From: Malassezia japonica
Lineage: Eukaryota; Basidiomycota; Malasseziomycetes; Malasseziales; Malasseziaceae
NCBI RefSeq assembly: GCF_029542785.1
Contig: NC_083370.1
Span: forward strand, 310,001-374,000
Direction of reading: 5' to 3'
Length of the DNA stretch: 64,000 nucleotides
Shown: positions 1 to 64,000 of the stretch, one piece after another
Position numbering within the stretch: the first letter of the stretch is position 1
How the letters are laid out: each line of letters opens with the position of its first letter
The notes under the pieces: generated by a model
Told to the model about the DNA's origin: nothing
The model's input: the letters and a program-made list of their open reading frames with translations, nothing else
Databases searched by the model: none
Position numbers and translations under genes: made by a program

Positions 1-153
1 TTGTTGACGTAGGTCTGGTGGTGCTTGTCGTGGTGGATCGTCATGATCTCCTTGGAGATGAACGGCTCCAGCGCATCGTAAGCGTAGGGCAGAGGAGGAA
101 GAGTGTACTCGGCTGCGGTTAGCGGGGAAGGACATTCAGGAGGACGTACTCAT
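1..153 (-). CDS. SOD2: Mn superoxide dismutase (Mala s 11-like), 5' end only
   Basis: This enzyme dismutates superoxide to peroxide and oxygen. Only the N-terminus is inside the window; the gene runs off the left edge. A four-base first exon (150-153, ATG plus A) is joined across a 37-nt intron (113-149, GTACGT donor, GCTAAC branch, CAG acceptor) to exon 2 (1-112). The product begins [20 protein letters not shown] and continues with the family signature [15 protein letters not shown], including the first metal-ligand histidine region. No mitochondrial presequence is visible, so a cytosolic Mn-SOD is plausible, as known in other basidiomycetes. The N-terminus resembles Malassezia allergen Mala s 11, recognised from memory. 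Confidence 0.9.
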
Positions 154-313
154 TGTGGTAGTCGAAGTTGGGAGGGAGCCGTTGCCACTCCCCGCACTGT
201 TAAGTCCATGGCCCCTGCGGCCGGGCCAGAGGCCGTCGGACCCGGCATCCAACCAGAGGCCAGCAAATGCGTTTCTAGAAGCCCGATCACTTCATACGTC
301 ATGACGAAATCGC

Positions 314-319
314 CACGTG
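314..319. promoter_or_regulatory. CACGTG E-box upstream of Mn-SOD
   Basis: Perfect CACGTG palindrome about 160 bp upstream of the Mn-SOD start. It is one of a series of such sites in intergenic spaces of this window. Binding by a bHLH factor such as Cbf1 or Tye7 is inference. Confidence 0.4.
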
Positions 320-389
320 GGTGCACGGACGCCTAAGGGCGCCGGGCGCAGGGCGTTGTGCGCTGTGCACGGAGCAGCGGCGGAAGGGG

Positions 390-1473
390 CTATTCGCTAT
401 CGTAGTCATCACTTGCCTCCTCGGCCTCGGGGTAGTCGAGCACGCCCTCGTCGTCGCTCTGCTCCAGGTCCGAATTGGCGTCCGAGACGGCGTCCGAGGC
501 CGTGCCAGAATCGGCCTCGCCGATTTCCTCGCTCTCCTCCGAGCTCGGCTCGCGGATGCGCGCTGCGTTGCCGTGTCGGCGCGCGCGGGCGGCGCGCAGC
601 TCGTCGAGACGCGACTTGCGGGTATTGGATTCAGACATTGTCCGATGGCTCTCGTCAGGCGGAGGCGAAACACTGACAATGCCCGAGTCGGACGACGCAT
701 AGTCTCCTTGCGATGCGGCATCGTCATCATCGACGACAAAGTCTTGAAGGGACCCCTCTTCGTCGCTATCATTCGCTTCCTCTTCAGATTCGTGATTCAC
801 CGCCTCGGAGCGGTGCCACGACGCCTCGTCTTCGGTCAGATCTTCGTAGATCACGCCACTGCGTTAGTAATGCGACGTACCATTCCGGATTGGAACACTC
901 TCCCTCAAGGATCTCGCTCGAGCATACACCACACCGAAGCACGCCGTCATCCTCGTCGCGAATGACATGGTAAAATGTCGCAGGGTCAAAGAGGCCTGTG
1001 TGAGCCGAGTAACGTACCCTCCCAAAGGTCCTGGCTGATGGGGGGCGCATCACGCTGACTATTTGTGCTTTCGCGCAGCGCCTCCAATACGCCCTTGAGC
1101 GCCCATAGCTCCAGCGGCGGCGTCACGACTTGCACGCGACAGCTCGGGCACACCTTTTTGCGGCGTACCGTTCCCCGCTGCTCGTCTTCTTCGTTTACAT
1201 GCATCTCCACCTTGAACCAGGATACGAGGCAGTTGGCACAAAAGATATGGCCGCACGGCGAGACGCTGCGTGAGCACAATAGACGTACACGCATGGGCGG
1301 TCGAGCAGCTCCATGCAAATGCCACAGAGCAGCCCATTCTCCACCTTGGAAAGCGTCGCATTGGCACGAGCCAGTTCATCTCCTTCGCGTCCTAACTGAA
1401 TGCCCTCGTCCTCTGAAGAGTCGCTAATCACCTCGACGGTGCGCCGCCGCTTTGGCGCGTGTCCCCCCGCCAT
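390..1473 (-). CDS. RING-finger protein with second Cys cluster and acidic tail (CHFR/Psh1-like E3 ligase)
   Basis: Probable E3 ubiquitin ligase of 338 residues. Three tiny introns (1266-1288, 23 nt; 996-1017, 22 nt; 859-880, 22 nt) must be removed to keep frame. The spliced product has a basic N-terminus (KRRR) with an acidic SDSSEDE patch, then a C3HC4 RING running from LLCGICMELLDRPC through SPCGHIFCANC to KVCPSCR. A second cysteine group follows (RCGVC, then GECSNPECG), and the C-terminal third is rich in Asp, Glu and Ser. RING plus a second zinc cluster plus an acidic tail recalls yeast Psh1, the Cse4 ligase, or CHFR; this is inference. The start at 1473 has a good GCCATGG context; an in-frame ATG at 1506 is possible. 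Divergent from SUB2. Confidence 0.75.
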
Positions 1474-1510
1474 GGCGTTCTGCGCGTCGCGTCGATTCCT
1501 CCACATATAT

Positions 1511-1583: not shown

Positions 1584-2917
1584 ATGGACAACGAGGAGTA
1601 GGTGTGAAGCGCGACGTACATGCTGACCGCAGTCTTATTGATTACGAGGAGGAAGTGACTGTGGCTCCCTCCACCGGCACCACCACCGAGACCACGACCA
1701 CGACCACGGCCGCGGCGGGTGAAGAAAAAGACAAGAAGGGCAGCTACGTCGGTATCCACTCGACGGGTTTCCGTGACTTTTTGCTGAAGCCCGAGCTGCT
1801 CCGTGCGATCAGTGACCTTGGTTTCGAGCACCCCTCCGAGGTGCAGCAGGAGTGCATTCCCCAGTCGATTCTCGGCATGGATGTGCTTTGCCAGGCCAAG
1901 TCTGGTATGGGTAAGACGGCCGTGTTTGTGCTTGCCACGCTGCAGCAGATTGAGCCGGTCGACGGCGAGGTGTCGGTCATTGTCATGTGCCACACGCGTG
2001 AGCTGGCCTACCAGATCAAGAACGAGTACGCTCGTTTCACCAAGTACATGCCCGAGGTGCGCACCGCTGTCGTGTATGGTGGTACGCCCATCCGTGAGGA
2101 TCAGGCGATGCTTGCGGACAAGACCAAGTGCCCCCACATTATTGTCGGCACGCCCGGTCGTATGAACGGTCTGGTGCGCGACAAGTCGCTCAAGGGTGGT
2201 GAAGTGAAGCACTTTGTGCTGGACGAGTGTGACAAGATGCTCGACAACCTTGAAATGCGCCGCGATGTGCAGGAGATCTTCCGCGCGACGCCCCACCACA
2301 AGCAGGTGATGATGTTCAGTGCGACGCTCTCCAAGGAGATCCGCCCCACCTGCAAGAAGTTCATGCAGAACCCGCTGGAGATCTACGTCGACGATGAGAC
2401 GAAGCTCACGCTGCACGGTCTGCAGCAGCACTACGTCCGCCTCGAGGAGTCCGCCAAGAACCGCAAGCTGAACGACCTGCTCGACTCGCTCGAGTTCAAC
2501 CAGGTGATTATCTTTGTCAAGTCGATCTCGCGTGCGAATCAGCTTGACCAGCTCCTGCGCGAGTGCAACTTCCCTTCGATCTCGATCCACGGTGGTCTGC
2601 CCCAGGACGAGCGTATCAAGCGGTACCAGCAGTTCAAGAACTTTGAGAAGCGTATCCTTGTCGCGACCGACATCTTTGGCCGTGGTATCGATGTGGAGCG
2701 TGTCAACGTCTCCATCTCGTACGACACGCCGTCGGACGCGGACTCGTACCTGCACCGTGTCGGCCGTGCGGGTCGTTTCGGTACCAAGGGTCTTGCCATC
2801 ACCTTTGTGTCCAGCGATGAGGACGCCGAGGTGCTCAAGCAGATCCAGAGCCGCTTCGAGGTGGCCGTCCCAGAGCTCCCCGAGTCGATCGAGGCCAGCT
2901 CGTACATGAACGCATAA
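1584..2917 (+). CDS. SUB2: DECD-box RNA helicase Sub2/UAP56 (splicing and mRNA export)
   Basis: ATP-dependent RNA helicase acting in spliceosome assembly and, with TREX, in nuclear mRNA export. A 14-nt first exon (1584-1597) is joined over a 35-nt intron (1598-1632) to exon 2, giving a 432-residue protein beginning [13 protein letters not shown], the family N-terminus. Motifs in order: Walker A AKSGMGKT near residue 90, TRELA, GTPGR, the diagnostic LDECDKML near residue 200 (DECD rather than DEAD), SAT, and [10 protein letters not shown]. The DECD box and start sequence separate it from eIF4A and Dhh1. A long Thr run follows the N-terminus. The only domain-free stretch is this Thr/Glu segment. 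Confidence 0.97.
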
Positions 2918-2983: not shown

Positions 2984-3733
2984 ATGGAGCCGAAGAATGG
3001 CGATTTTCAGACGCGCGAGTACTGGGACCAGCGCTATGCGTCCGAGGCGCCGGATGCAGACTTTGACTGGTTCCGCAAGGTGCGTTGTCGTGCTAATGCA
3101 GTATAGCGACATCTCGTACGCACTACGACTCACGCAGCGACATTATGCACGAACTCGTGCCCGACCGTGCGAGTCGCATCCTGATGTTGGGGTGCGGCAA
3201 CTCGAGTAGGTAGCGTGGCTGACGCAGCGTTGAGTGCAGATATGTATGAGGACGGGTACAAGAATATCGTCAGTACGTACAGCGACTGACCAAGATTTGG
3301 ACTACAGCTCGGTGCTCATTGAAAAGATGCAGCAGCGCGCTCCGGATATGGAGTGGAAGGTGATGGATATCCGGGAGCTCGAGGAGCATGCGGATGAGCT
3401 GGGAGGCAAGGGGACATGGGACGTAATTATCGATAAGGGTAGGTGGCTTGGCTGACCCAGGCACCATGGACGCTCTCATGGCCGAAAACGCCTCGGTCTG
3501 GAACCCATCCGAGCAGGTGCTCGACAATGTCCGCCGCGAAGTCGACGGCGTGCTTGCGTAGGTGGATATGCTGACCCAGATTGCTCAAAAGCCACACGGG
3601 CCTCTTTCTCTACTTTACGTTTGGCCAGCCGCATTTCCGCAAGCCGCACATGCAGCGGCCGAATTGGACGATTGAACAGCGCGAGCTGGGCGACACGTTC
3701 CATTACTATTTGTACATTGGCCGCAAGGAGTAG
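2984..3733 (+). CDS. SAM-dependent methyltransferase, eEF1A-lysine methyltransferase 4 (EEF1AKMT4)-like
   Basis: Class I methyltransferase of 205 residues, by family likely acting on elongation factor 1A lysine. Six introns, each exactly 22 nt, interrupt 618 coding bases: 3080-3101, 3116-3137, 3206-3227, 3273-3294, 3439-3460 and 3558-3579. Spliced features: N-terminal EYWDQRYASEAPDADFDWF, SAM-binding motif I RILMLGCGNSTLS, acidic motif II NLDYSSVL, motif DVIIDKGTMDALM, and the C-terminal FGQPHFRKPHM segment typical of the EEF1AKMT4/METTL13 N-terminal group. It ends directly against the stop codon of SPP2 with no bases between. The substrate is inferred. Confidence 0.8.
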
Positions 3734-4970: not shown

Positions 4971-6247
<1,277 letters not shown>

Positions 6248-12328: not shown

Positions 12329-12704
12329 CTATCCCGAGCCCGGCTCTTGCATCACGACCAACACGTATTTTTGGCCTGGGTCAGTGCGGCGACGTACTTG
12401 GTGTGACAAGCAGCTCGTATTTCTTGGTGCGCACGCGCAGCAAGCTCAGTTCGTCGTCCGCTTCGACTTCGTCGACGTGGCGCGTGACGACGTCGAGCAT
12501 GTCGCGCACAAACTGCACGACGCGCTCCAACGCGTCGGTGGCCTCGCCCTCGCCCGCGACAAACGCGGCGCCGCCGCTCCATAGCACACGGCCATCCGTT
12601 GTAAGTGTAACGCATCCCCGCACCTGGCGGTGCTGCGTAAGGTGCGCAAGGATCTGGACCGCCTCGTCCGGCGCCTCGCCCGGACGCGGCACGGCAGAGG
12701 CCAT
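12329..12704 (-). CDS. Roadblock/LC7-type dynein light chain
   Basis: Small roadblock-fold protein of 117 residues, homologous to dynein light chain roadblock (DYNLRB), which dimerises on the dynein intermediate chain. A 22-nt intron (12376-12397) splits the last strand: exon 1 ends RTKKYELLVTP, exon 2 gives SQKYVLVVMQEPGSG, together the conserved C-terminal roadblock pattern. The central part, VRGCVTLTTDGRVLWSGG, is the usual turn of the fold. Without the intron the reading frame would diverge into unrelated sequence. MAD1 lies directly upstream (its stop at 12731) on the same strand, 26 bp from this ATG. Confidence 0.85.
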
Positions 12705-12730: not shown

Positions 12731-15221
12731 CTATTCCTCCTCCGGCGCGCCAAACGCGCCGCGGATGGCCTGGGTGGTATTTTCGTAGAGCTCGAGGTTG
12801 AGCGCCGCGAGGAAGCATGGTACGCTGTGCCGGATGCCGTCGCTCAGCCAGTAGTCACGTAGATGCGCGACATTGGCAAGGCCGTCGGCGGCCTCGCCCT
12901 GCAGCTTCATCTCGCCCACGTTGCCCTCTTCGGAGCGGAAGACGAGCGTGGTGACGCGCGCGCCGCGTGCGTACGCCGACGTGAGCTTCACCTTGCCGTT
13001 CTCGAGGAAGCGCAGCTTGTATCCAAAGAGCGACTGCACGGCCTCGCGGAACTCGTTGGCCTTGGCCGTAAAGACCTGCTTGAGACGCAGCATGCCTTTG
13101 TCCTTTAGCTGGATCGTTTCCTCGAGCTGAGCCAGCTCACGCTTGAGGTTCTCGACCGTTTGTAGCGGCACGACTGTGTCAGAGTCGCCCGCGGGCTGCG
13201 ACGACGCGCCGGCCGCCTTGAGCTGCTCGTGCAGCGACTCGATCTGGCGGAGCAATCCTTCATTCTCTTTGCGCAGCGCATCGAGGGTCGCAGTGCGGAT
13301 CGCATAGTCGCGCGACACCGGATTGTCTTGGAGCGTCAGGCACTTGACGCGCGTCTGGTCAAATTCGCCGCGGCCGACACGCGTATAGAGCTGGTCGTTT
13401 TCCGCACCGAGCGCCTGCGCCTGTGCCTCGAGCTCGGCATAGCGCGCCTCAAGAGACGCGAGTGCGGTCCGCGCTTCGCCCAACGCGCGGCGGTCCGCGT
13501 CACTGGTCGCCGCAGGCGCCACGGCCGTCTGCGCACGTTCGGCCGCATCGGCCGCAGCGCGCTCCGCGTCCTCGAGGCGCGAGGCGAGCGACATGCACTC
13601 TTGCTGTGCAGAGGCGAAGCGCGTCTCGAGATCCGCGATACGCTGCGACTGCACCTGGTCGTACGTCTCGGAGCCCTGTGCTTCGGTCTCAAACGTAGCA
13701 AGGAGCTCCTTGCACCGCCGCAGCTCGTCCGCCTGCACGTCGTGCTGGCGCTGTACACGCATCAGCGCCGTGGCCTTTTCCGAGAGTTCGCGTGCGAGAT
13801 TCGACTCGTTCTCAGAGCCCTGGCGCGCCTGGCGCTCGAGCGTGACGTTGGAGGAGCGCAGCTGCTCGACCGAGTGGGTGAGCCCCTCGATACGCGCAGA
13901 CAGCCCCATGATCGTCCCGCGGAGCGTCGAGACGTACGGCGCGAGCGTCTCGTGCGTGAGCGAGGCGGGGAGCTCGACTTTCGGCACGTCGGCCTCGACA
14001 TTCGCGGCAGCGACAAACGCCGCATGCTCGTCGGTCTGCACGCCTTGCCGGAGGATGTGGGACCACTTTTCCTGCTCGGCACGCAGCGTGCCCAGCTCCT
14101 GGTCCTTCTTGAGCAGGTCGTCGTGCAGCGCATCCATGCGCTTCGCCTTGGCCTCGAGCGAGCGGTTGGTCTCGCGGAGGATCTCGGCGCCTTGGCACGC
14201 CTCGGCGAGGCGCGCATTCTCGGTCGTGAGGCGCGTCTGCGACGTCTCCAAGCGGTGTACCGCGGCAATTTGTTCTGGGTAAGTCTAGCGACGTACGGCT
14301 CAGCTGCTCCTTGAGCATGGTAACTTCCTCGTCGTCGACCGGCGCAGAGCGCATGCCTCCCTCTTTGGCCTGCTCCAGCTCGGCGTTTTCGGCACGCAGG
14401 CGCTCGCTGACCTGCTGCCAATGCTGCGCCTGCTCTTGGGCCTGCGCCGCGTCCGACTGCGCCGCGATGAGATCCGTGCGGAGCTGCGACTGCTCGGCGT
14501 GCGACGTGCTCTGCACCTCGTTCACCTGCGCCAGCGCCTCGTTCTTGGCCTCGCGCAGCTGCAGCGTCTCGCTGCGGAGCGCCGCGAGCTCCTGCTCGAG
14601 TGCGTGCTTGGACGCGTGCCAATCTTCGTGCTTTTGGCGCTGCGCGGCGCGCTCCGCCTCCCACTCGTTCAGCACCTCGACGCGCTGGCATTTGAGCACC
14701 TCGAGCTCGCGCGCCTGGCTGCGTATTTGGGACTCGAGGTGCCGGTGCGCGCGCTGCTCCTCCTCGATGCGCCGGTCGTACTCGGTGCGTAGCATGGTCA
14801 GCTCGTATGCCTCGGATCGCTGCGGCGCCTCGGGCAGCTCGGCGAGGGGCCGCGCACGCGGCCCCGTCGCGAGGCCAGACGAGACCAAGGTGCGTTTCGG
14901 CGTGTCTTTGGGTGTCGCGAGCGCGCCCGGCTCGAGCAGGTCCGTAGACGAGATAGTGCGCTTTCCGAGGCTCGTGCTGCTGCGCAGCGGCGTCGATCCC
15001 GAGCGCGACAAGCTGCGGTAAGCGCCGAGCGGCCCGCCGGACCCTCCGAGCGAGCTCGGGGTGCGGCGCACACTTTGCGGCGTATCGCGCACCGAAGCGC
15101 GTGTTTCCGAGATGGTACGGCGCGAGGGCATCGGCAGCGATGACCCCGCGCCTCCTTCCGTGCGCCGCTGCGCGGCAACGCGCGCCTGCGGCGTCGAGAG
15201 CGACGTGGGTCGCTCCGCCAT
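12731..15221 (-). CDS. MAD1: Spindle assembly checkpoint protein Mad1
   Basis: Coiled-coil checkpoint protein of 822 residues that carries Mad2 to unattached kinetochores. One 22-nt intron (14275-14296) joins KEQLSQ to QIAAVHRLETSQTRL in the middle of the coiled coil. The N-terminal 120 residues are Ser/Thr/Pro rich. Most of the protein is heptad-like with many Glu, Gln, Arg and Ala. The C-terminus carries the RLK-type motif (GMLRLKQVFTAKANEFREAV) and the globular tail with LFGYKLRFLENGKVKLTSAY, the diagnostic Mad1 C-terminal domain. It is followed by the roadblock light-chain gene, both on the minus strand. Confidence 0.93.
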
Positions 15222-15285: not shown

Positions 15286-16555
15286 CTAGGCGACCATTGC
15301 CGGCGCGCTCTGCGCGAGGCTCGGCACGCCGCCCCAAAAGGAGGATGTCGGAGAGGAGGAGCGCGGCGAGGGACTCACGTCCTTGCGCATGTTGGGCACC
15401 ACCAGGCCGTTTTGCGCGCTGAGGCGCGGGGAACGGGTGGCTTCGTCCGAGCTGCGCTGCAGCGCGCCAAGCAGTTTGGACATGTCGACGGACGGCGCGC
15501 GTGTCTGGTACGACCGCACTTCGTTCGTTAGGTCGCTGTTTTGGATGCGCAGCGACGAGAGCTGGTCCTTGAGGCTCTCGATGATCCGATCGCGCTCCTG
15601 GATCTGGTCCTCGAGCAAGGTGATGTATTCCTTCCGGCGGTTGCGGAAGTTGCGCGCCGAGATCTTGTTCCGCAGCTGCCGCTTTTCCTTGCTGGACAGC
15701 TTGTTGTACTCTTCCATCGACGGGCGGAGGTTTTCCACGTCGGGGCTCGTCGCACGCATGTCTAGCTTCGGGCGGGAGGGCGTCGGCTGGTCGAGGCGCA
15801 TCGGCGTAAAAGCGGTAAAGGTGGTATCACTCTCTGGCTCCTCGGCCACCATCGGCATGGGGGCGGGAGACTCGCTCTTCATCGGCACGTTTGGCTCGGG
15901 AAGCGTTAGAGAGGGAAAAAGGGGCGCGTCGGGCGCCACGGGCTCGGGCTGCGAGAGGACGAGCTGCGGATCGATCGAAGTCTCGCCCGGTGGCGCACTC
16001 GCCTCCTTGTCCTGTACAAAGGCCGAAGCGGTATCAAAGCCGGGCGTCTCTTGCGGCGCAATCGGGTCGATGAACGGGGGTACGTAGAGCGCCGAGTCCA
16101 TCTGCTGGTCGACGTCTTCGGTAAAGTCGAGGTTCAGCAGATTCGACGGGAGGTCGTCGTCGCCCTCTGCGTCTGCCGACCAGCGCTCGGCAGGGCTAAA
16201 TGCGTCGCCGACGCTCGCGGGCGGCGTGAGCACCGACGTGGCCTCGGCCGCACTCGCGGCGCCTTGCTCGATCGACGGCGGCTCGGCAGTGGCGCTCTCG
16301 CGCTGCTTTTGCACGAGGGGGTAGTGCTGCTTGACCAGGCGGTCGAGCAGAGTCTTGTCAGGCTGTGACCCCATTTTCTGGAGCTCGACGGTGAGGTGGT
16401 AACGCTGGGTCAGCACAGGCACGTACAAAGACCTCCTCCTGCGACGCGCCTTGGCGCGGGGGCGAGGGCGGCAGGGACGATAGTGTGTACTCCGCACTCG
16501 ATGATGACGATGGGTCGTACGCAAAGGACGGGCCGGCGTTACAAACGGCCGCCAT
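15286..16555 (-). CDS. bZIP transcription factor
   Basis: DNA-binding regulator of 415 residues. One 22-nt intron (16405-16426) joins QGASQEEVF to RYHLTVELQKMGSQPD. The basic region and zipper lie around residues 260-320: KEKRQLRNKISARNFRNRR is the basic region (N-x2-S-A-x2-F-R signature), followed by a leucine-zipper-like helix (LLEDQIQERDRIIESLKDQL). The N-terminal half is acidic and rich in Pro and Ser, as in activation domains. Targets cannot be told from sequence. The start at 16555 (MAAVCNAGPSF) is the only well-placed ATG of exon 1. Divergent from TBCA across 247 bp. Confidence 0.88.
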
Positions 16556-16802: not shown

Positions 16803-17205
16803 ATGGGCGATATCGCCGCGGAGAAACGCCAGCTGACCATCAAGACGGGTGTCGTGCGGCGGTATGTACGGAATCTAATGTAGACTGTCCAAGGAGCTGT
16901 GGATGTACACGGTCGAGGCCAAGGAGCAGGACGCCAAGGTGCAGCAGTTTATCGCCGATAACCGCGAGGCATGGGAAGTGCGCAAGCAGGTACGTTTTGC
17001 TACTGACCTCAGGAGGAAATTCTCAAGGACTGCACACAAATGGTGCCGGACACCAAGCGCCGCCTCTCGGACGCGGTCGTGGACCTGGACGCGTACTTGG
17101 TACGTGCCGCCTCTCACCCAGCACGGACTCGACGAGGCGACCAAGGAAACGGACGAGTACCGTAGTGCAGTCGAGGCCCTGGACAAGTCAAAGGAGAGTC
17201 CGTAG
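16803..17205 (+). CDS. TBCA: Tubulin-specific chaperone A (Rbl2/TBCA)
   Basis: Tubulin cofactor A, which holds beta-tubulin during folding. Three tiny introns (16862-16883, 22 nt; 16990-17012, 23 nt; 17100-17121, 22 nt) interrupt a 111-residue protein. The spliced sequence begins MGDIAAEKRQLTIKTGVVRR and continues LSKELWMYTVEAKEQDAKV, the first helix pair of the three-helix bundle, then QEEILKDCTQMVPDTKRRL. Length and helix pattern fit the family. It lies head-to-tail with RNase Z, whose start is 113 bp downstream. Confidence 0.9.
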
Positions 17206-17318: not shown

Positions 17319-18833
17319 ATGGCGCCCCCGGTGATCCAGGTGCGGTTCCTCGGAACGAGCACGACACCTCTGCCTACGCGCAACTACTCGAGGTACGCGT
17401 ATGCGCTAACGTAGCCTGCTGGTAAAAATCGATAAGCATGCCGTGATGGTGTACGTTGCGAAGCTGACCCAGCGACTGTGGCGAGGGCACGCAGCGCCAG
17501 CTCTTTCGCAGCTCGGTGCACGCCGAGACGAAGCTGACGCAGATCCAGTCGATCCTTATTACCCATCTGCATCCCGATCGTATGTGCCGCGGCTGACACA
17601 GACATCCTCGGCCTCGTCCCGATGATGTTTACCATGATGGGCCTCAGTGCACCTGCGGGGCGCGACGACAAGCCGCGCCTCGAGCTGTACGGCCCGCTGG
17701 GCCTGCGCGCGCACCTGCGCACGACGCTTTCGACGTGCTATGCCACGCTGAGCTCAAACTATGTCGTCCACGAGCTCTTGTGGCCGGGGCAGCCAGAGTA
17801 CCCCCACGATATTCCGCACGGCGCGCCGCCGGTCTTTCGGTACGTCGAGGGCGACCAGGCGCTGCCGGAGAATGTGCGGGGGCAGGAGCGCATCCTCCCA
17901 CTGATGCCCCCGCACCCGAACGAGCTCCCTGGGCGGAATATCCGCATGGACGAGGCGACGTGCACCTGGCCCGAAATTGGCACCATTGCGCACACCGGCA
18001 TCACGGTCAGCGCCGCGCCAATTACGCATCGCTGCCCTACGCTTGGCTACGTACTTACAGAGCCGCTTAGTGCGTCGCAGTCCATCTCGCCAAGGGACCT
18101 CGCGCAGCTCGACTCGAACACCGAGGCACTGTTCGAGTCACAAGGCATCCGCAATCCCCGCGTGCTCTTGTCGGGTCTGCTGCGCAGCCGCGAGCCACTG
18201 CACCTGCCGGACGGCTCTGTGCTGTACCCCCCTCCTCTGGATCGGCCGGGGCGCAAGCTGTGCATCCTCGGTGACACGAGCGACGCCACGGCTGATTTAG
18301 TCGCCCTCGACGGCGGCCGGCCGGCCGGCGCGCTGCGCGGCATGCTCGACCTCGCGCGCGGCGCAGACTTGCTCGTCCACGAGTGCACATATGCCTCGAT
18401 GAGCGACGAGGATATGCAGCACGCCAAAAACACGTCGGAAGCGCATGCAAAACGCCTCCAGAGTGCGCTGCTCGAGGTGGATGAGGCAGAGACTCGCGCG
18501 CTCTCGCGCGGGCACTCGACGCCGCGCATCGCCGGCTCGTTTGCAGGGCTCATTGGGGCACGCAGAATCGCGTTGAACCACTTTTCCGCGCGCATTCCTG
18601 CCCCAATTGTCGCGACCAACGCGCCGCTGGTCGCCGAGGACCAGCTGGCGCCGGGCGCCAACTACGACGAATCGCTACAGCGTTTCCATGTGATGCGCGA
18701 GATCGAGCGCCAAGTCACGATGCACTGGCACAATACCCTGCGCCGCGAGCACTCGGGCGCGCCTTGCGACGAGCGCGCGACAGCCGCCTACGACGGCCTC
18801 GCGCTCGACGTTCCCCCGCGTTCCCCTCTGTAG
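17319..18833 (+). CDS. tRNA 3'-processing endoribonuclease RNase Z, short (ELAC1-like) form
   Basis: Metallo-beta-lactamase nuclease that removes tRNA 3' trailers. Three 22-nt introns (17393-17414, 17451-17472, 17580-17601) are removed to give 482 residues. The spliced N-terminus reads IQVRFLGTSTTPLPTRNYSS, then MVDCGEGTQRQL and the catalytic HLHPDHILGL motif, which is itself split by intron 3. Later metal ligands are seen in KLCILGDTSDAT, LLVHECTYA, and IALNHFSAR near the C-terminus. A single short lactamase domain is present instead of the double-length form of S. cerevisiae Trz1. The start at 17319 has a CCGCCATGG context. The insert around residues 140-200 is long for a short form. Confidence 0.88.
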
Positions 18834-20520: not shown

Positions 20521-22631
<2,111 letters not shown>

Positions 22632-36998: not shown

Positions 36999-37092
36999 GG
37001 TCCTGTAGGATAACGGTTAGTCCGAAGGTTTCTGATTCTGCGACTGCAAGTCACGAATTCCTTAAGCCGCGGTTCGACTCCGCGCAGGACCT
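36999..37092 (+). tRNA. tRNA-Gln(CTG), copy 1, with 22-nt intron
   Basis: Acceptor GGTCCTG pairs with CAGGACC; discriminator T as in yeast tRNA-Gln. D arm GGAT/GTCC, anticodon CTG at 37032-37034, T arm CGCGG-TTCGACT-CCGCG. The intron 37036-37057 sits one base 3' of the anticodon, the normal place. Mature length 72 without CCA. Confidence 0.93.
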
Positions 37093-37094
37093 TG

Positions 37095-37319: not shown

Positions 37320-37412
37320 GGTCCTGTAGGATAACGGTTAGTCCGAAGGTTTCTGATTTGTGACAACAAGTCTTGCATTCCTTAAGCCGCGGTTCGACTC
37401 CGCGCAGGACCT
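37320..37412 (+). tRNA. tRNA-Gln(CTG), copy 2, with 21-nt intron
   Basis: Exon sequence identical to copy 1 (acceptor, D arm, anticodon CTG at 37353-37355, T arm). The intron 37357-37377 differs in length and in most bases. The two genes are 227 bp apart on the same strand. Confidence 0.93.
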
Positions 37413-39471: not shown

Positions 39472-39758
39472 GGCGAAGGATGGGGGGATAGGTAGAGAAT
39501 GGATTTTGAATCGGTCACGATGCAATGTCCCTGACGCATCGGAGCCAGTAGGGCAGCTCGCTTTTCATTCTTCCATTAGCGTGCTGCGCGAAATGCACAG
39601 TGCCGCACCTTTCATGCGCGAGGGTGTTGATTAGTCGCTACATTAATTATATCCACAAATTTCCCTCGGCTGTGCGGCTTTACAATGGGACAGCACGGAA
39701 ACTAAGTCGCTTTACGCGTTGCGCCGGAGCGGCGCGGGACAGTGACACAGTGTCGTGC

Positions 39759-49870: not shown

Positions 49871-50825
49871 CTATGCACTTTCCTTGGCAGGCGTCCGGCC
49901 CCAGGCCAGCCTGACCTCTTTTCCATCGATCTCGACCTTTACTGCGAGGCTCTCCGCGGCGCGCTCGGCGGCGTCGCGCGAGGTAAAGTTGACAAAGGCG
50001 CAATGCGACGCGGGGACGAGCGTCACGCCGCGGATCTGCTCCTGCTTCAGGCCGGGCACGGACGCGAGGAACGCGGCGCGCAGGCTCTCTTCGCTCATCT
50101 CGGGCAGGCCCGAGAGAAAGAGCGACATGATCATGGGGTTCGCCGGGGGCACGAGTCCTTTGGCGCTTGCGTGCTTTTGGAGGATGGAGCGTGCGACGTG
50201 GTCGTTGGTGCCGTGGTAGCGGTCCGCGACGCTCTGCTTCGGATTCTCGGTGGGAATCTCGTGGCGGTACGGGCACGCCTCGCCGCGCGTGCAGGCACCG
50301 CGCGCGTAGAACGAGCAGACGTGCGGCCGATTCCGCTTATAGTCCGGCGTGTCGCGCGCGAGCTTCTCGAGGACGGCGTGGCCCGCACGCTGCGGCCCCG
50401 AGCTCGGCGTATTCTGCTCCTCGCCCATGACCGCCTCCATGCGGTTCACGTAGTACTGGCGGTTGATGTCCGAGGTGGGTATCGCACTCTGGATGTTGAG
50501 CGCCGTGTCGCGGACGTGCGTCGGGAGCTGGTAGTCGAGGTCAAGGATACACGTCTGGCACACATTCTTCAGCTTCGCACACGTCGTGCAGATCTCCGTC
50601 TTCTTGAACCGCATCCCTGCGCCGGGGTTCCAGCGGAAGACGGTAAAGGGGCGGCCACAGACCTTGCACTCTTTGCCGAGGTGCTGCTTCGACATGCGCA
50701 CGTACGGGTTCGGACCGAGGCACGTCTCACACAGAATCGGCGTGTCCGCGCTCGAGGAGCCCGCGCTCGCGGCGCCCTGCTTGTTCAGGAAGCCATAGGA
50801 CTGCGTCAGCCACAAAACGTACCAT
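49871..50825 (-). CDS. ECM2: Splicing factor Ecm2/Slt11 (RBM22, cwf5 family)
   Basis: Spliceosome active-site RNA-binding protein; 310 residues. The first coding exon is just the ATG (50823-50825); a 22-nt intron (50801-50822) joins it to TCC TAT GGC. The N-terminus then reads MSYGFLNKQG, followed by the zinc-binding PILCETCLGPNPYVRMSK, ECKVCGRPFTVFRW, and KTEICTTCAKLKNVCQTC. A CCCH finger (VCSFYARGACTRGEACPYRH) and a C-terminal RRM (LFLSGLPEMSEESLRAAF, AFVNFTSRDAAERA) follow. The domain order matches RBM22. Start codons of this gene and NMT1 are 30 bp apart on opposite strands. Confidence 0.93.
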
Positions 50826-50855: not shown

Positions 50856-52406
50856 ATGTCAAACGAGGCCCCCAAAGACGCCCAAGGCCTGCAGAACCTC
50901 GCACGCCTGATGGCGATGCTCGACACGGACGCGCGCGCGCCCAAAGCCCCGAGCGAGCACAAGTTCTGGAAGACGCAGCCGGTGGTCCAGCCGGGCGACC
51001 ATCCCTCGCTCGCCGAGGGGCCGATCCACCCGGACCTGCCCCCGGAACAGGTGCGTGGGACGCCGTACCCCTTGCCGGCGGACTTTGTCTGGGACACTAT
51101 CGACATGGACGACGACGCGCAGCTCCTCGAGGTGTACGAGCTGCTCACGGCTAACTACGTCGAGGACGACGAGTCGACGATGCGCTTCAAATACTCTGCC
51201 GAGTTCCTGCACTGGGCGCTGCGTCACCCCGGCTACAACAAGACATGGCACGTCGGCGTGCGTGTCGCATCCACCAAGAAGCTCGTCGCATTCATCGCGG
51301 GCATCCCCCAGGAGCTGCGCGTGCGCGACACCGCGCGCCAGACCACCGAAATCAACTTTTTGTGCGTGCACAAGAAGCTGCGCTCCAAGCGCCTTGCGCC
51401 GGTGCTCATCAAGGAGGTGACGCGCCGCTGCAACCTCAGCGGCATCTTCCAGGCGATATACACGGTGGGATCGGTGCTGCCGACGCCGGTGTCGTGCACA
51501 CGCTACTACCACCGCACGCTCGATGCATCCAAGCTGCTGGATATTGGCTTTAGCGCGGTGCCGGAAGGCATGTCGCGCGACGCGCACGTCGCGCGCTACA
51601 CGCTCCCCAAGACGACCGCGATCGCGGGCCTGCGCGAGATGGCCCCCGCGGACGTGCCACAGGTCGGCGCGCTCCTGCGCCGCTACCTGCGCCGCTTTGA
51701 CATGGCGCCGCGCTATACCGACGCCGAAGTCGCGCACCTCTTCCTCAGCGGCCGCGGAAAGGAGCAGGCGGACGGAAAGCGCACCGGCCAGGTGACCTGG
51801 ACATACGTCGTGGAGAGCGAGGGGCGCATTACCGACTTCTTTTCGTTCTACTCGCTCCCCTCGTCGATCCTCGAGCATCCCAAGCACGACACGCTCGAGG
51901 CGGCCTACCTGTTTTACTATGCGAGCGAGTCGGCCTTTGCGACGCCCGCGCCGAAGCGCGCGCAGGACGACGCTACCGCGCCGTACGCGCGCGCCGAGGC
52001 CGACGGCACGCCGGCGTGGCAGCGCGCCGCGCTCTCGCGCCTCGGCGCGGCCGAGGCGAGCGACGAGGCGGACGTCGTGCCGTGGAACCAAGAGTCGCCC
52101 GAGCAAAAAGCCAAGCTCAAGGCGCGCCTGAACGAGCTCATGACCGACATGCTCGTCCTCGCCAAGCTGCACAACTTTGACGTGCTCAACTGCCTCACGG
52201 TCCTCGACAACCCCCTCTTTGCATCGGACCTCAAGTTTGGGCCGGGCGATGGATTCCTGCGCTTCTACCTCTTTAACTGGCGCGTCCAGCCGGTGGCCGG
52301 CGGCATGGGCCAGCGCGCCGGCGAGGCGGACCTCGATCCCGCCGCGACCGAGCGCAAGGCCGAGCCCACACGCGAGGGCTCGGGGAATGGTGTCGTGATG
52401 GTCTAG
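50856..52406 (+). CDS. NMT1: Glycylpeptide N-tetradecanoyltransferase (N-myristoyltransferase)
   Basis: Transfers myristate to N-terminal glycine; essential in several fungi and an antifungal target. The protein has 516 residues from 50856 (MSNEAPKDAQG); an in-frame ATG at 50838 overlaps the E-box. Signature blocks: EHKFWKTQPV, WDTIDMDDDAQLLEVYELL, YVEDDESTMRFKYS, EINFLCVHKKLRSKRLAPVL, and the C-terminal KFGPGDGFLRFYLFNWR. The protein ends GNGVVMV. In this family the last residue's carboxylate is the catalytic base, and yeast ends in a similar GVVML, so the C-terminus is intact. An Ala/Asp-rich insert at about 350-410 is lineage specific. Confidence 0.95.
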   Translation: MSNEAPKDAQGLQNLARLMAMLDTDARAPKAPSEHKFWKTQPVVQPGDHPSLAEGPIHPDLPPEQVRGTPYPLPADFVWDTIDMDDDAQLLEVYELLTANYVEDDESTMRFKYSAEFLHWALRHPGYNKTWHVGVRVASTKKLVAFIAGIPQELRVRDTARQTTEINFLCVHKKLRSKRLAPVLIKEVTRRCNLSGIFQAIYTVGSVLPTPVSCTRYYHRTLDASKLLDIGFSAVPEGMSRDAHVARYTLPKTTAIAGLREMAPADVPQVGALLRRYLRRFDMAPRYTDAEVAHLFLSGRGKEQADGKRTGQVTWTYVVESEGRITDFFSFYSLPSSILEHPKHDTLEAAYLFYYASESAFATPAPKRAQDDATAPYARAEADGTPAWQRAALSRLGAAEASDEADVVPWNQESPEQKAKLKARLNELMTDMLVLAKLHNFDVLNCLTVLDNPLFASDLKFGPGDGFLRFYLFNWRVQPVAGGMGQRAGEADLDPAATERKAEPTREGSGNGVVMV

Positions 52407-54059
52407 TGCACCAGCTTGTTCATAGCCAGTAGCCACGACCAGCTGCGCCACATGCGGTCGACCGTCGCCTGGCGGTGCGCCCACGCGTCGGCGCCGCCGC
52501 GGTCGGACAGGAGCGCGGTCTGGCCCGCGGCCTCGAGCACGCCGAGGTCCTGTGCGATCTCCGCCTCGAGGCGCGACGACACGGCGCGGTCGCGCGCGGC
52601 GGCCGGTACCAGCGTGCCAAACGACGTGCGCAGCGTGTCGACGTCGAGGAGCAGGAAGCCGTACCCCTTTGCGCCGGCCGTATCCCCGCGGCTGACGAGC
52701 GCGTCGACGCGGCGCAGCGCCTCCCACGCGCCGAGGCGCGCGTCGCGCACAGTGCGCTGCACCTTGACCGAGGCTTCGCCGTACAGGAGCGAGCGCACGC
52801 AGCGCACGCCCTGCGTCCAGAGCAGGTAGACCAGTGCCAGCGCCGGCGCGAGGCCGACAAAGCCAATGAGCAGCTCCTGCGAGCGCAGGAGCCAGTCGAT
52901 GCCGCTGAGCGCGACCTCGAGGTCGACCTTGGCCTTTTGCACCTGGATCAGCACGGTGCGGATGAGGCTGCCGCCGAGGAGCGAGCGCAGCGGCGTGCGG
53001 ATATCGCGCTCGTACAGCTCCATGACGCTCGTCAGGTCGCCGTGCTGCACGCGCTGCACCGCGTTGGCGATCGCGCCGTCGCGCCACTTGAGCTTGTCCG
53101 ACCCCAGCTCGGCGACCATCCGCTCCAGGCTGTGCTGGTCCGCCGCGAGCGAGTCGCGCGAGATGATCATGCGGCGCTCCGCCTGACCGGCGCGCACCGT
53201 GTCGAGGAGGCGCATCGCCGGCTCGTACACCCACCCAATCACGAGGCCGCGCAGCGTCGCACCGGCCTGGGTGAGCTGCTCGACGATCGACGTCCAGTTC
53301 GCCGAGACGTACTGCGTGATGCCGATCGAGACGAGCGGATAGGCGACGAGCAGCGGCCAGGTCCGTGCGAGGAGCGACGGCTTGCCGCACGCGTCGCTCG
53401 CCAGGAGGCGCGCGACGCGGCTCTCGTGCCGCGCGACGGCATCGAGCAGCACCGAGGCGGCGTCCTCGACGGATGCCGCCTTGGCATCGTCGCTGCCGAG
53501 TGCCTTGGCGACCTTGTGCACGAGCGCCTGGACGTCGCTCGCCTGCTCGTTGGCGTGCCACGCAAGTGCGACCGACCCGAGCGTCTCGGCGAGCGCATCG
53601 TACGCCTCGCTCAGGCGCGCGCCCCGCGCGTGCGCTTCCATGCGTACGCCACGCAGCGTCACGAGCGCGCTGCGCGGCAGCCCGCGGTGCGCAATACTAT
53701 AGACACTCTTGCCGACGCGCTCGGGGAGGGCTGCGTGAGCTTCGCTACCTACTTTGCACCCAGTACACCGTGCCTTGCCACGGCGACTCTTCGATCTGCG
53801 CCCAGTACCACTGCAGCTCGCGCACCGCGCCCGCGTCCTGCGTCAGGGCGTCGACGAGGTAGCGCAGCGTCGCCAGCACCACGCGTGTGGTGTCTGCATC
53901 GGTATGCTCCGCGCTGCGCACGCGCGCGAGCGCGCTCGAAAGCGCCGCACACGTACGCAGACGCAGCAGCGTCTCGCCATCCCACGTCCGCGCGCTCGGC
54001 GGCGCAAGCCCGTGCAGCGCCGCCTCCAGCGACCCCGCCAGGGACCGTGCTGCGCTCAT
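52403..54059 (-). CDS. NCA2: Nuclear control of ATPase protein Nca2 (mitochondrial membrane)
   Basis: Mitochondrial protein that in yeast affects expression of ATP synthase subunits 6 and 8; 544 residues. A 22-nt intron (53732-53753) joins GTVYWVQ to TLPERVGKSVYSIAHRGLP. Conserved NCA2 blocks: SLERMVAELGSDKLKWRDGA, HGDLTSVMELYERDIRTPLR, IRTVLIQVQKAKVDLEVALS, and IDWLLRSQELLIGFVGLAPA. Hydrophobic segments include TWPLLVAYPLVSIGI and the one after SQELL. The stop codon overlaps the NMT1 stop (CTAG). Divergent from SSK1 by 44 bp. Confidence 0.9.
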
Positions 54060-58389: not shown

Positions 58390-58401
58390 GCACCTTTCTC
58401 C

Positions 58402-59563
58402 ATGCTGCCTCGCTTCTGGTCGGTGCTCCTGGTAGCCGCGTGCGTGCTTGCGCCGATAGTGGCCGCCGCGCGCGACTACTACCAGGTGCTTGGTGTTGCG
58501 CGGAGCGCGTCAGAGCGCGAAATCAAGTCGGCATACCGGAAAATCGCGCGCGCGATCCACCCGGACAAGCACCCGGAGAAGGCGGAAGAAGTACGTCGCT
58601 TCACTCACCCAGTTTATGGAACTCAGCGAGGCGTACCAGACGCTGAGCGACAGCGAGATGCGCCAGGTGTACGACCGCCACGGCGCAGATGCGGCCAAGC
58701 AGCGCCAGGCCCAGAAAGACAACGGCCAGCGCTCGGGCGACGCCTTTGACCTCTTCCGCCAGTTCTTTGGCGGGGGGGCCTCGGACGAGACGCCCAAGGG
58801 GCCGCGGCGGATGTACGAGGCGGAAATGGCGCTGAGCGACGTGTACACCGGTCGCACCTTTACACTCTCTCACACGCGCTCGGTCGTGTGCCCGGAATGC
58901 TACGGCTCGGGCGCCGAGTCGTCGGCGCACATTCATACTTGCTCCCAGTGCAACGGACAGGGCGCCCAGATCATGCGCCAGCAGATCATGCCGGGCTTTG
59001 TGACCAACGTCCAGGTACAGTGCAACGCGTGCGGCGGCAAGGGCAAGACCATCGCGAAACTCTGCAAACGGTGCCGCGGCCACAAGACAGTCGTCGACGA
59101 GACGGAAATCGAGGTCGAGGTCGAGGCGGGTGCGCGCGAGGGCGCCGAGTACCACTTTGAGGGGATGGGCGAGCAGAGCCCGGACCACGACGCAGGCGAC
59201 GTCGTGGTCGTGGTACACACCAAGACCGGGCCGGGCGACTTCCGGCGAGTGGGCCATAACCTGTACTTCACGGTGCCGCTGTCGCTCTCCGAGGCGCTGT
59301 TTGGCTTTGAAAAGGAGCTCACTCACTACGATGACCACCCGTTCACGTTGCGCCGCCGCTCCGCGACGCAGCCGGGGCACGTCGAGCGCATCCTCGACGA
59401 GGGCCTTCCCATTCCGGAGGAGGAGCGCGAGGCCGCGCAGGGCCGCACCGTTGGCGACCTGTTTGTCACGTACTCGGTGGTGATTCCCGAGACGCAGGGC
59501 AAGACGCGCCAGGCACTCGCCAAGGCACTCGGTGTGGACGATGTGCGTCATACAGAGTTGTAG
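58402..59563 (+). CDS. SCJ1: ER-lumen DnaJ chaperone Scj1 (ERdj3-like)
   Basis: Hsp40 co-chaperone of ER Hsp70 Kar2; 379 residues. Signal peptide MLPRFWSVLLVAACVLAPIV; J domain with DYYQVLGVARSASEREIKSA and the catalytic HPD in RAIHPDKHP. A 22-nt intron (58591-58612) joins KAEE to FMELSEAYQTL inside the J domain. Then a Gly/Phe segment, a zinc-finger region (CPECYGSGAES, CSQCNGQGAQ, CNACGGKGK, CKRCRGHK: four CXXCXGXG-type repeats), and a C-terminal substrate-binding region. The protein ends HTEL, an HDEL-like ER retrieval variant. Confidence 0.93.
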
Positions 59564-59585: not shown

Positions 59586-61147
59586 CTAGACTACCAGATA
59601 AATTGCAACAACAAGTGCCACCAAGGCAGAAAGGAGGGATGCACGGAGCGCCGTGGCGCTCGAGCTCACCATGTGCATTCCGGCCGGGACACTGAGCACC
59701 GACGGCGAAGGCAGCGCTTTGCTCGGCAGCTCTTGGTTCTCGGCAGGTATCAATGTCGAGCTCGGGAGGAGCAGAGAACCGGAAGGCGTCGACCGCACCG
59801 ACGTGGAGAGGCTCGTCATGGACGGCTTCGCCACGCCTTGGTCCGGTAGCCGCGCAAAGCCCACGAGCTCGGGCTCGTAGCTAAACACACTGTACACCGT
59901 CTTGAGGAACGAGTCGCCAATGATCCAGTTAGGTGCGTTGGTGATCTTCGGTTCGTGTACAAACACCGCACCGACGCACTCCTTGCTCCCGGCACTCACA
60001 TGGCCCAAGTTCAGGCTGTCGTTGGTCAGTGTGTAAGGCACGTTGTTGAAGGAGAGCGTGACGTTAAAGGCCGAGTCACAGGGATATGTATAGTACTGCG
60101 ACATGTTAACGCCCCCCGGCTTTGCACCGGGAATCGACTCGTAGATCTGCTTGACCAAGCTGCCGGGGCCGCCGATCAGCGTCGTGCCCGTGTCGATCGC
60201 GGCAGAGGACTGGCTGCCGAGCGCAATGTTATTGCCATTCACCATGAGTCCACTGAGCGCCACACCCCAATAGCCACGACCTTTGGAGCCGTACGCGGGA
60301 AGAACCGGCGTCCAGGAGATCTCGCCTTGGAACTGCGAGCGGTCGATTCTGCCGAGCGTCATCGTGCCTCCGGGCAGCACATCGCCCCGCCCTTTGGTAT
60401 TGTCGATGTTGGTGGCGAGCTGGAACGAGAACACACGCTGCTCCATCCTGCCTTTCGACGCAAGCAGCTGCCACAGCGGTATGTCGTTCGTGGCCGAGAG
60501 ACTCGAAAAGCCCAGACCCATCAGGCCCGAGGCGGGTGGCGTGAGCGTCTTTTGGCCGAGCCTGCTCGCCTGCGCAAAGGCAAGCGACGACACGCTGTAG
60601 CCCGCCACGGACACCGTGTCCGAGACCATCGTGCCTTGCACGGAGCCCACACCGTACTCGAGGTGGAAAGGCGCGTTGCTCAAGTGACTCGAGCTGCTGG
60701 CCGACGCATTGTAGCGCTGCATCGACGCATCGCAGCCCGAATGCGGCGCGCAGCTCGCACCGACAATCCAAAAGTCAGCGGATCCCGTATCGAGAACAAC
60801 ATTGAACATTTTGCCGGGTGTCCCAACCTGCACTGCGCCAAAATAGAAGCTGGGTGAGTCGTGTGCACGTACCTGTCTGCGCCATAGTCGGCCAGAACAA
60901 CTTGCTGGCGCGCCTCGAGCGAGCTGTTACGATGCGAGTAGCGTGCATGCATTTTTTGGGCTTCACGGGACGCCCACTCCATGAGCGCCTCGCCGTGCAA
61001 GCCATTGCGGGGGTGCAGTGCGTTGGGGTTCGTCCAGATCGGGACGGTGAAATTCTGCGAGGTATCATGCGTGGCCGACGGCGAGGCCTGGGTATACGAG
61101 AGCCACAATAGGGAGTAAATAATCCCTAGTAGTCTGCCGTAGTTCAT
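59586..61147 (-). CDS. Secreted GPI-type aspartyl protease (A1), tandem member 1
   Basis: 512 residues. Signal peptide MNYGRLLGIIYSLLWLSYTQ; prosegment; a 23-nt intron (60850-60872) joins DYGADS to FYFGAVQVGTPGK. Catalytic motifs VVLDTGSADFW and AAIDTGTTLIGGP; Tyr-flap region LEYGVGSVQG. The sequence after the enzyme domain is Ser/Thr/Pro-rich and ends RASLLSALVALVVAIYLVV, a GPI-attachment type tail. Not Pep4-like. Malassezia secreted aspartyl proteases are known to cleave bacterial and host proteins; which enzyme this matches cannot be said without a search. Convergent with SCJ1 (22 bp between stops). Confidence 0.88.
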
Positions 61148-63004: not shown

Positions 63005-63350
63005 TGTGAGTGTGGGGCGAAGAAAGAGCGGAGCCAAGCACGGGTGGGACGCGACAGTGCACTGCCTGGCGAAACGCGCCACAAATTCCCATTTACCCGC
63101 CGCCGCCACGTGGGGTACAGGTGCGAGGTGGTGGCGTAGAAGCGCAGTGCCGAGCCTTGGGAGTGTCTTGGCATACGAATCATTGCGTAACTATGAATCG
63201 ACAGAGTGGCTATGCCAATGTTCGTTAGGGTCTGCAAATAGAGCGTTGTGGCATAGGTCCATGCCCTGCGGCGGACAAACAAGCGCAGTCGCACAAATCT
63301 GCAAAGAGATGCACGCATCCCTGCTACGCCACCCAAGCACCTTGCGACCA
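63005..63350. other. Promoter region of the aspartyl protease and 3' flank of TIM10
   Basis: No gene recognised in 346 bp. Contains a CACGTG E-box at 63107-63112, 103 bp before the protease start. Confidence 0.4.
63107..63112. promoter_or_regulatory. CACGTG E-box upstream of the aspartyl protease
   Basis: CACGTG on the upstream side of the minus-strand start at 63004. Confidence 0.35.
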
Positions 63351-63710
63351 TTAACCAAACATGCGGCCGCCGGGGGCACCGGCGCCAGAAGCCTGCTGGC
63401 CGATAGCCTGCATCTGCTCGCCGACCTTGGCGTTGACGGCAAAGAACTTGCTCACGCAACTGATGTCAGAATAGGTAGACATACCGATCAATGCACACGC
63501 TTTCACCCTTAAGCAGATCGGGCTCCGCGTAGCGCGTGCTGATGCACTTCTTATGGCACGACTCCACAAGACGGTTGAACACGTCCGTGATCATATCGAG
63601 CTGGGGTATAAGAATGTCTGTATGTATGAACGTACTTCTGCAGTAGCAGCCTCGAGCTGCGCCGAGTTGGCCGCGGGGGCCGCGCTGCTTCCACCTCCGA
63701 AAAGCGGCAT
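63351..63710 (-). CDS. TIM10: Mitochondrial small TIM chaperone Tim10
   Basis: Intermembrane-space chaperone, part of the Tim9-Tim10 hexamer that guides carrier proteins; 99 residues. Two introns are removed: 63601-63635 (35 nt) and 63460-63484 (25 nt). The spliced protein has MITDVFNRLVESCHKKCISTR and GESVCIDRCVSKFFAVNAKV, the twin CX3C motifs (CHKKC and CIDRC). The second intron falls inside the second CX3C pair, between R and C. The N-terminus MPLFGGGSSAAPAANSAQ and C-terminal Gly-rich tail are low complexity. Confidence 0.93.
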
Positions 63711-63907
63711 GACTGTGTCTGGAAGGTGCCGACGTTCTCCTTCGCGACCGCTGCGGTTGCTGACTAAAATGAGGCGTGCGTGCTCCACTTGCGATACGTG
63801 GAGCAAATGCATGTCGCCCAGCCTGGCGTCGTGTCCATGTCATTGATCGTTGCTACGAAAAGGGATCCATAAAAAAAAAAGATTAAAAGAAAAGTTCATT
63901 ACCAAGA

Positions 63908-64000
63908 TTAGCACAGGACGCATGCCAGTGTCACGGAAAGGAGGACAATATAGAGTGCAAACTGGATCGAATAGGCACGGTGCGCTCCCGAGGTGGCCGT
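63908..64000 (-). CDS. C-terminal end of a GPI-type surface protein (cut by window edge)
   Basis: Only the last 30 residues are in the window: TSGAHRAYSIQFALYIVLLS, then VTLACVLC and stop at 63908-63910. A Ser/Gly segment before a hydrophobic tail is typical of a GPI signal, as in the aspartyl proteases 1-4 kb to the left. It may be a third member of that cluster; this is inferred from position only. Confidence 0.55.
   Translation of the reverse strand, partial: TATSGAHRAYSIQFALYIVLLSVTLACVLC

Follow-up and report, generated by a model that had tools for sequence, protein, structure and literature searches.

One of the closest described counterparts of the introns reported here is found in Stentor coeruleus, in which 15-nucleotide (nt) introns carry the branch-point adenosine (branch A) at position 10 (8005 introns, 90.90%; PMC9505925). 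Trichomonas has 24 type B introns of ~25 nt, the shortest being 23 nt (PMC12316389), and the human spliceosome works with a hard limit of 44 to 47 nt between donor and branch point, which is attributed to the B complex, where a U6 helix (17 nt) and a U2 helix (14 nt) are joined by a bridge of ~21 nt (PMC11291888). Within Malassezia, annotations of M. globosa gave mean intron lengths of 76 and 79 nt (PMC4634964), annotation of the genus has used a minimum intron of 15 to 20 nt with RNA-seq hints (PMC6473144), and the introns of M. restricta have a mean of 37.2 and a median of 30 nt (PMC9241646), in agreement with the statement of an earlier, sequence-only reading that short introns are known in the genus. 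The present analysis concerns a 64-kb window of Malassezia japonica DNA (the whole stretch analyzed, NC_083370.1, positions 310001 to 374000; G+C content, 60.9%; genome of 8.43 Mb in nine contigs) and the class of 22-nt spliceosomal introns that dominates it. Whether such a fixed geometry had been described was left as a question by that reading: it has been in Stentor (PMC9505925), while the excerpts of open-licence literature on Malassezia introns describe no 22-nt mode, branch position, or floor, and an earlier description may exist.

The window was scanned on both strands for a donor GTRNGH followed by a branch motif CTNAY with its A 4 to 9 bases before the final G, at lengths of 16 to 69 nt. 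Exactly 25 matches were 22 nt long (GTRNGH-N7-CTNAY-NN-AG), and all 25 had the branch A at +17 and the final G at position 22, five bases past it, just as had been counted previously. The coding score of the spliced form exceeded that of the read-through in each of the 25, although stops were strongly penalized, making this a frame test and not a proof. Coding frames are connected by 24 of these matches, and 23 are used by the best nonoverlapping gene models. The remaining introns of the window measure 21 nt (one), 23 nt (four), 24 nt (one), 25 nt (one), 29 nt (two), and 35, 37, 61, and 350 nt (one each), for a total of 38 when the doubtful 22-nt match at 45221-45242 is counted. Branch A is also at 17 in the 21-nt intron and in one of the 23-nt introns, the other three having it at 18. 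The sequence-only reading had listed 39 introns; its 28-nt intron could not be confirmed (the candidate at 36814-36841 scores badly both spliced and unspliced and lies outside every gene model), and a 24-nt intron at 34129-34152 was added. The observation of the 22-nt class in the window is confirmed.

The same class was then sought in a 264-kb sample consisting of the window and 20 stretches covering all nine contigs, with codon usage trained on 79 long open frames. A branch-blind gene model, which rewarded only the GT donor (mild consensus) and the AG acceptor, had no term for the branch motif, and treated all lengths from 12 to 150 nt as equally likely, placed 162 introns, of which 44 were 22 nt and 10 were 23 nt long, with no more than 4 at any other length; the thin spread up to 150 nt is regarded as mostly false. 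The unmodeled motif CTNAY occurred at positions 14 to 18 in 43 of these 44 introns, a branch compatible with yUnAy that, with the GT donor and AG acceptor, is consistent with U2-type membership. When a branch term was included, the model placed 161 introns (lengths to 400 nt; 52 of 22 nt) or, with a bonus for A at 17 that inflates the share of the class, 137 introns (up to 80 nt; 66 of 22 nt). An any-length pattern gave 52 matches at 22 nt against none in the reversed sequence. Across the whole genome, GTANGT-N7-CTNAC-NN-AG matched 1252 + 1197 = 2449 times and the backwards pattern 3 times, and a CTGAC-only pattern with variable spacing gave 1321 matches against 44 in the control. The strict pattern captures 48 of the 71 class members in the 264 kb, and scaling 2449 by 71/48 yields a rough estimate of ~3600 introns of 22 nt genome-wide. 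The length distribution therefore has its peak at 22 nt and is not broad and peakless, and the earlier interpretation of a dominant, genome-wide 22-nt class with A at 17 is supported. The strict matches appeared to be unevenly spread, with 48 in the 264 kb versus ~77 predicted from the genome average.

The position of the branch A has a sharp lower edge. When introns in the 264 kb were sorted by branch A position, with 4 to 8 bases between branch and acceptor, none was found at positions 9 to 16, 57 at 17, and 12 at 18, followed by a tail of 5, 5, 8, 3, and 3 at positions 19 to 23; the reversed control gave 6 at positions 10 to 14, none at 17, and 1 at 18. Shortening the linker to 0 to 6 bases in the genome-wide pattern (branch A at 10 to 16, total length 15 to 21 nt) gave 22 matches versus 20 in the control for the seven spacings together. 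With A at 17, the strict motif was followed by the acceptor after 4 (3 cases), 5 (48 cases), or 6 to 9 (4 cases) bases. Since the acceptor distance varies behind a constant A at 17, the floor acts on the donor-to-branch distance, and a hard minimum of that distance with a tail above it is a better description than a fixed total length. The branch-to-acceptor interval is separately focused on 5. The Stentor-type combination of a fixed branch A position and a single dominant length was thus found here (A17, 22 nt), while neither the 264 kb nor the genome-wide patterns held any excess below A17 that would correspond to Stentor-type introns of 15 to 16 nt with branch A at 10 to 11.

We consider it probable, at roughly 75%, that these are U2-type GT-AG introns shortened to the smallest donor-to-branch distance usable by this spliceosome, with A at +17, 16 nt after G+1. 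The 22 bases would then be laid out as a donor at 1 to 6, a linker in which positions 8 and 9 favor G and C, a branch site (RCTNAY) at 13 to 18, and NYAG at 19 to 22; with the acceptor five bases beyond the branch A, no pyrimidine tract fits. Introns may have been driven onto this steric floor by a bias toward deletions or by selection for compact genes, which would make the shortest distance the commonest one and leave a tail of longer ones.

The introns of the window and one micro-exon are as follows.

113-149, minus strand, 37-nt intron, superoxide dismutase gene
859-880, minus strand, 22-nt intron, RING-finger gene
996-1017, minus strand, 22-nt intron, RING-finger gene
1266-1288, minus strand, 23-nt intron (A18), RING-finger gene
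1598-1632, plus strand, 35-nt intron, Sub2/UAP56-like gene (named by eye)
3080-3101, plus strand, 22-nt intron 1, methyltransferase gene
3102-3115, plus strand, 14-nt micro-exon flanked by two 22-nt introns, methyltransferase gene
3116-3137, plus strand, 22-nt intron 2, methyltransferase gene
3206-3227, plus strand, 22-nt intron 3, methyltransferase gene
3273-3294, plus strand, 22-nt intron 4, methyltransferase gene
3439-3460, plus strand, 22-nt intron 5, methyltransferase gene
3558-3579, plus strand, 22-nt intron 6, methyltransferase gene
5042-5064, plus strand, 23-nt intron (A18), aspartyl-protease-like gene (named by eye)
12376-12397, minus strand, 22-nt intron, Roadblock/LC7 gene
14275-14296, minus strand, 22-nt intron, Mad1-like gene
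16405-16426, minus strand, 22-nt intron, bZIP gene
16862-16883, plus strand, 22-nt intron, tubulin cofactor A (TBCA) gene
16990-17012, plus strand, 23-nt intron (A17), TBCA gene
17100-17121, plus strand, 22-nt intron, TBCA gene
17393-17414, plus strand, 22-nt intron, metallo-beta-lactamase-fold (RNase Z-like) gene
17451-17472, plus strand, 22-nt intron, same RNase Z-like gene
17580-17601, plus strand, 22-nt intron, same RNase Z-like gene
21938-22287, plus strand, 350-nt intron (long exception), DBP2/DDX5-like gene (named by eye)
23136-23157, plus strand, 22-nt intron, Exo_endo_phos gene
24761-24781, minus strand, 21-nt intron, branch A at 17, TsaD-family gene
29717-29745, plus strand, 29-nt intron, UbiA-family gene
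29864-29885, plus strand, 22-nt intron, UbiA-family gene
33827-33887, plus strand, 61-nt intron, WD-repeat-like gene (named by eye)
34129-34152, plus strand, 24-nt intron (A18), WD-repeat-like gene (named by eye)
34876-34897, plus strand, 22-nt intron, WD-repeat-like gene (named by eye)
39079-39107, minus strand, 29-nt intron
41099-41120, minus strand, 22-nt intron, polysaccharide deacetylase gene
44798-44819, minus strand, 22-nt intron, histone deacetylase gene
45221-45242, plus strand, 22-nt match 5' of an ATG that joins no coding frame, either an intron in an untranslated region or false
50801-50822, minus strand, 22-nt intron right after the start codon, RBM22/Slt11-like splicing-factor gene (the preceding exon is the start codon only, and the frame evidence is weak)
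53731-53752, minus strand, 22-nt intron, gene 52403-54059 (model first dropped by the overlap filter)
58591-58612, plus strand, 22-nt intron, DnaJ gene
60850-60872, minus strand, 23-nt intron (A18), aspartyl-protease-like gene (named by eye)
63460-63484, minus strand, 25-nt intron, Tim10/DDP-family gene

Removal of the introns restored a conserved protein in the genes tested. In the methyltransferase gene (2984-3733), excision of the six 22-nt introns left exons of 96, 14, 68, 45, 144, 97, and 154 nt (stop included), encoding a protein of 205 residues that aligned over its full length to M. furfur with 82% identity and end to end to other named basidiomycetes with about 51 to 67% identity (best 120 of 540 matches). 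Retention of any one of the six produced a premature stop, and the micro-exon encodes YSDI, residues that are largely conserved among the orthologues. The TBCA protein, spliced at three introns, matched MJAP1_000192, a deposited M. japonica protein that may itself be a gene prediction, with 100% identity across 111 residues. Pfam domains spanned the junctions in the TBCA, metallo-beta-lactamase, TsaD, UbiA, DnaJ, Tim10, Roadblock, and Exo_endo_phos proteins; the junctions of the histone deacetylase, bZIP, Mad1-like, and polysaccharide deacetylase proteins fell outside the matched domain.

Deposited proteins from other Malassezia species were found to err at or near these junctions, which in the methyltransferase lie at residues 33, 37, 60, 75, 123, and 155. 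Among the best 120 of 540 matches, five of the nine named Malassezia orthologues were faulty: that of M. caprae lacks residues 60 to 74, exactly the interval from junction 3 to junction 4, those of M. psittaci, M. cuniculi, and M. yamatoensis lack residues 60 to 63, 74 to 80, and 31 to 74, respectively, and that of M. nana lacks residues 38 to 79 and has eight additional residues after 122. The same 120 matches included no identical protein from M. japonica, which suggests that the gene is mis-modeled there. Two of four named TBCA proteins were also faulty, with residues missing near the third junction in M. brasiliensis and seven additional residues, VRRILMQ, at the second junction in the 66-residue protein of M. 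obtusa.

These results bear on the possibility that no introns are involved and that the pattern is artefactual or reflects some other feature that restores the frame, such as frameshift sites or repeats. The introns are known here from sequence alone, which leaves some room for such an explanation, but it is opposed by the branch-blind model, by the spliced scores of all 25 window matches, by the genome-wide count of 2449 versus 3, and by the methyltransferase homology; the three TBCA junctions also recur in a deposited protein at 100% identity, albeit one that may be a prediction. We consider the artefact explanation to have a negligible chance of being correct.

The donors of 95 class members from the sampled loci were GTACGT (60), GTAGGT (13), GTATGT (10), GTACGC (6), GTGCGT (5), and GTAAGT (1), the first five being those named in the sequence-only reading. 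Within the 95, +4 was C in 71, +8 was G in 51, +9 was C in 53, +13 was a purine in 79, and +20 was C in 86. The total information content, calculated from 71 introns and inflated by their pattern-based selection, was 24.8 bits. To characterize the linker, 165 introns with A at 17 were compared with 53 having A at 20 or beyond, in a pool of gene-model introns and genome pattern matches from one contig strand, part of it all-CTGAC, with five tests in one genome. Depleted in the A17 introns were +7A (23/165 versus 24/53; Fisher P = 5e-6), +8T (27/165 versus 24/53; P = 5e-5), and +9T (39/165 versus 23/53; P = 0.008), while +8G (91/165 versus 12/53; P = 3e-5) and +9C (94/165 versus 11/53; P = 4e-6) were enriched. 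The triplet CGC at +7 to +9 occurred in 35 of the 165.

Uniformity of this kind might result from common descent, with the 22-nt introns being copies of a recent, fixed-length introner-like element; the single length, the predominance of GTACGT, and the CGC triplet (35/165) would fit. Pairwise identity at positions 7 and 10 to 12, however, was 0.273 in 71 introns compared with 0.283 expected from column frequencies, and copies would scatter to both sides of 22 nt, yet 57 introns were found at A17 and none at A16 in the 264 kb. The faulty proteins of other Malassezia species are disrupted at these junctions too, suggesting that the intron positions are shared and older. An introner origin was rejected as very unlikely: no sequence is shared at positions 7 and 10 to 12, although positions 8 and 9 do share a preference.

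That preference speaks in favor of a second alternative, in which the 22-nt introns form a functionally separate class, read as a composite GTACGTYGC-NNN-RCTNAY-NYAG by a different route, for example, without stable U1 or U2AF. The +8G/+9C signal is confined to the class: no G/C enrichment was seen in longer introns at the matching branch-relative positions, nor in the donor-relative frame, and at A18 +8G and +9C were each present in only 5/17 introns, a small set. There is also no space for a pyrimidine tract, and human SPF45 provides a precedent for U2AF-independent short introns (PMC8363638). Conversely, the donor core is common to the introns of 23 to 60 nt, with +4C in 37/53 of these and in 51/66 of the 22-nt introns of the 264 kb, and U2AF35, U2AF65, and SF1 are all present in the genome. 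A separate class read in this way is possible but on balance unlikely. Donor +4A occurred once among these 22-nt introns and not at all among those of 23 to 60 nt.

For shortening onto a steric floor, the pairing of the donor offers a possible physical basis. The U6 of this genome has 5'-AUACAGAGA. From complementarity, +7A/+8U would lengthen the pairing with U6, which here reads 5'-GAACGAUACAGAGA, and with the canonical 5' end of U1, and the floor class seems to give up this extension. In the floor class, donor pairing with U1 and U6 would end at about +6 and the remaining linker would stay single-stranded, since a rigid helix of U6 and donor that extended further would leave too little RNA to reach the U2-branch helix. 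If the branch helix starts at 12 to 13, about five single-stranded bases would bridge the two helices. Sixteen nucleotides cannot accommodate the human B-complex arrangement, and U1 and U2 are probably not side by side as in the human A and B complexes; U1 would then have to leave, or bind only briefly, before U2/U6 engage. For the 14-nt exon at 3102-3115, exon definition seems to offer no easier route, and both modes of recognition look sterically difficult there. Pairing of +8G/+9C with U6 was considered and rejected, as by eye only +9C could pair (with the G two bases before AUACA) and +8G does not.

In a further reading, the +17 introns would be a distinct class whose spliceosome at no point has U1 and U2 on the intron together; a short donor helix (to +6), a GC-marked +8/+9 linker, and a U2-branch helix abutting it would be handed over without an intermediate to the catalytic U6/U2 arrangement. 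We regard this as doubtful, and equally doubtful, taken jointly with it, the corollary that the +17 floor is the minimum span of the catalytic U6/U2 arrangement, with all tested factors present.

The splicing machinery recognizable in the genome includes the PROCN domain of Prp8, a U6 small nuclear RNA gene, U2AF35 (59% identity), SF1 (48% identity), the C-terminal domain of U2AF65, Prp18, SNRNP27K, and a METTL16-family protein, a family that also occurs in bacteria. The gene models of the METTL16-family protein, Prp18, and SNRNP27K themselves carry introns of 21 to 34 nt, an extra 43-nt intron in the METTL16 model being doubtful. A 971-residue query missed SNRNP27K, probably because two introns split its conserved end, a result that would otherwise have stood as a false negative. 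The unusual donor +4C was not traced to a lost METTL16 or SNRNP27K, an explanation rejected because both genes are present; the rare +4A coexists with them in the genome. The idea that Prp18 or U2AF had been lost to suit the 5-nt branch-to-acceptor interval was likewise rejected, both being present. Prp18 is important in budding yeast for acceptors that lie far from the branch, and its presence here does not discriminate. The branching factor CWC25 has been proposed to be altered in Stentor (PMC9505925); a search with human CWC25 returned vertebrates among the best 120 of 939 matches and was uninformative for Malassezia.

Several observations weigh against a steric floor at +17. With its branch A at 10, Stentor goes lower (PMC9505925), so that +17 is no universal floor and any floor must depend on the machinery of the lineage. 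When back-translated, the VRRILMQ insertion in M. obtusa TBCA is compatible with an unspliced intron of 21 nt whose branch A would be at 16, a hint that M. obtusa may have a floor one base lower. In M. japonica, three genome matches at A16 have intron-like ends and may be real, three being the control level per spacing, and two strict matches lie at or below A16 in the 264 kb, compared with four in the control. The +8G/+9C preference is not accounted for by a simple unpaired linker. The 48 strict matches in the 264 kb imply ~1533 per genome, as opposed to the 2449 counted. Finally, U1 was not found in the genome with Rfam RF00003 or three patterns (one lone match), a result that says nothing about its absence.

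Compared with other systems, the M. japonica introns resemble those of Stentor in having one dominant length, a fixed branch A, and five positions from the branch A to the last base (PMC9505925). They differ in their strong branch motif and in the 61% G+C content of the window, whereas the Stentor branch site has no strong consensus and the commonest intron there is AT-rich (PMC9505925), and also in the 16-nt donor-to-branch distance, the tail of longer introns, and the fungal host. The lack of a pyrimidine tract and a branch site fixed relative to the acceptor are shared with Yarrowia, Trichomonas, and Giardia (PMC2483917), but Trichomonas has 34 introns and Yarrowia 719 with a mean of 269 nt (PMC2483917), as opposed to the ~3600 introns of 22 nt implied here. 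Human short introns dependent on SPF45/RBM17 share the truncated pyrimidine tract (PMC8363638), and the human donor-to-branch limit of 44 to 47 nt (PMC11291888) is nearly three times the distance found here.

Several other features of the window were recorded. The 350-nt intron at 21938-22287, the only long one, interrupts the DBP2/DDX5-like DEAD-box gene at the end of a motif; DBP2 of budding yeast has a long autoregulatory intron in the corresponding region. Two adjoining deacetylase-like genes at 37994-41427 contain the introns of 29 and 22 nt listed above, Pfam having been run on the second only. A tRNA-Arg (TCT) gene was predicted at 36998-37093, in agreement with Rfam, and a second tRNA-like prediction at 37320-37412 has a four-base anticodon.

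As far as searched, the 22-nt class is known in kind and extreme in degree for a fungus. Because deposited proteins err at or near the junctions, Malassezia gene sets need intron models that allow 21 to 23 nt. Thousands of introns with a 16-nt donor-to-branch distance are apparently removed in a fungus with recognizable SF1, U2AF, and Prp18, and the drop from 2449 matches to the control level within one spacing gives structural studies and reporter assays a precise number to account for. M. japonica is thus a natural test of the smallest intron that a spliceosome can handle.

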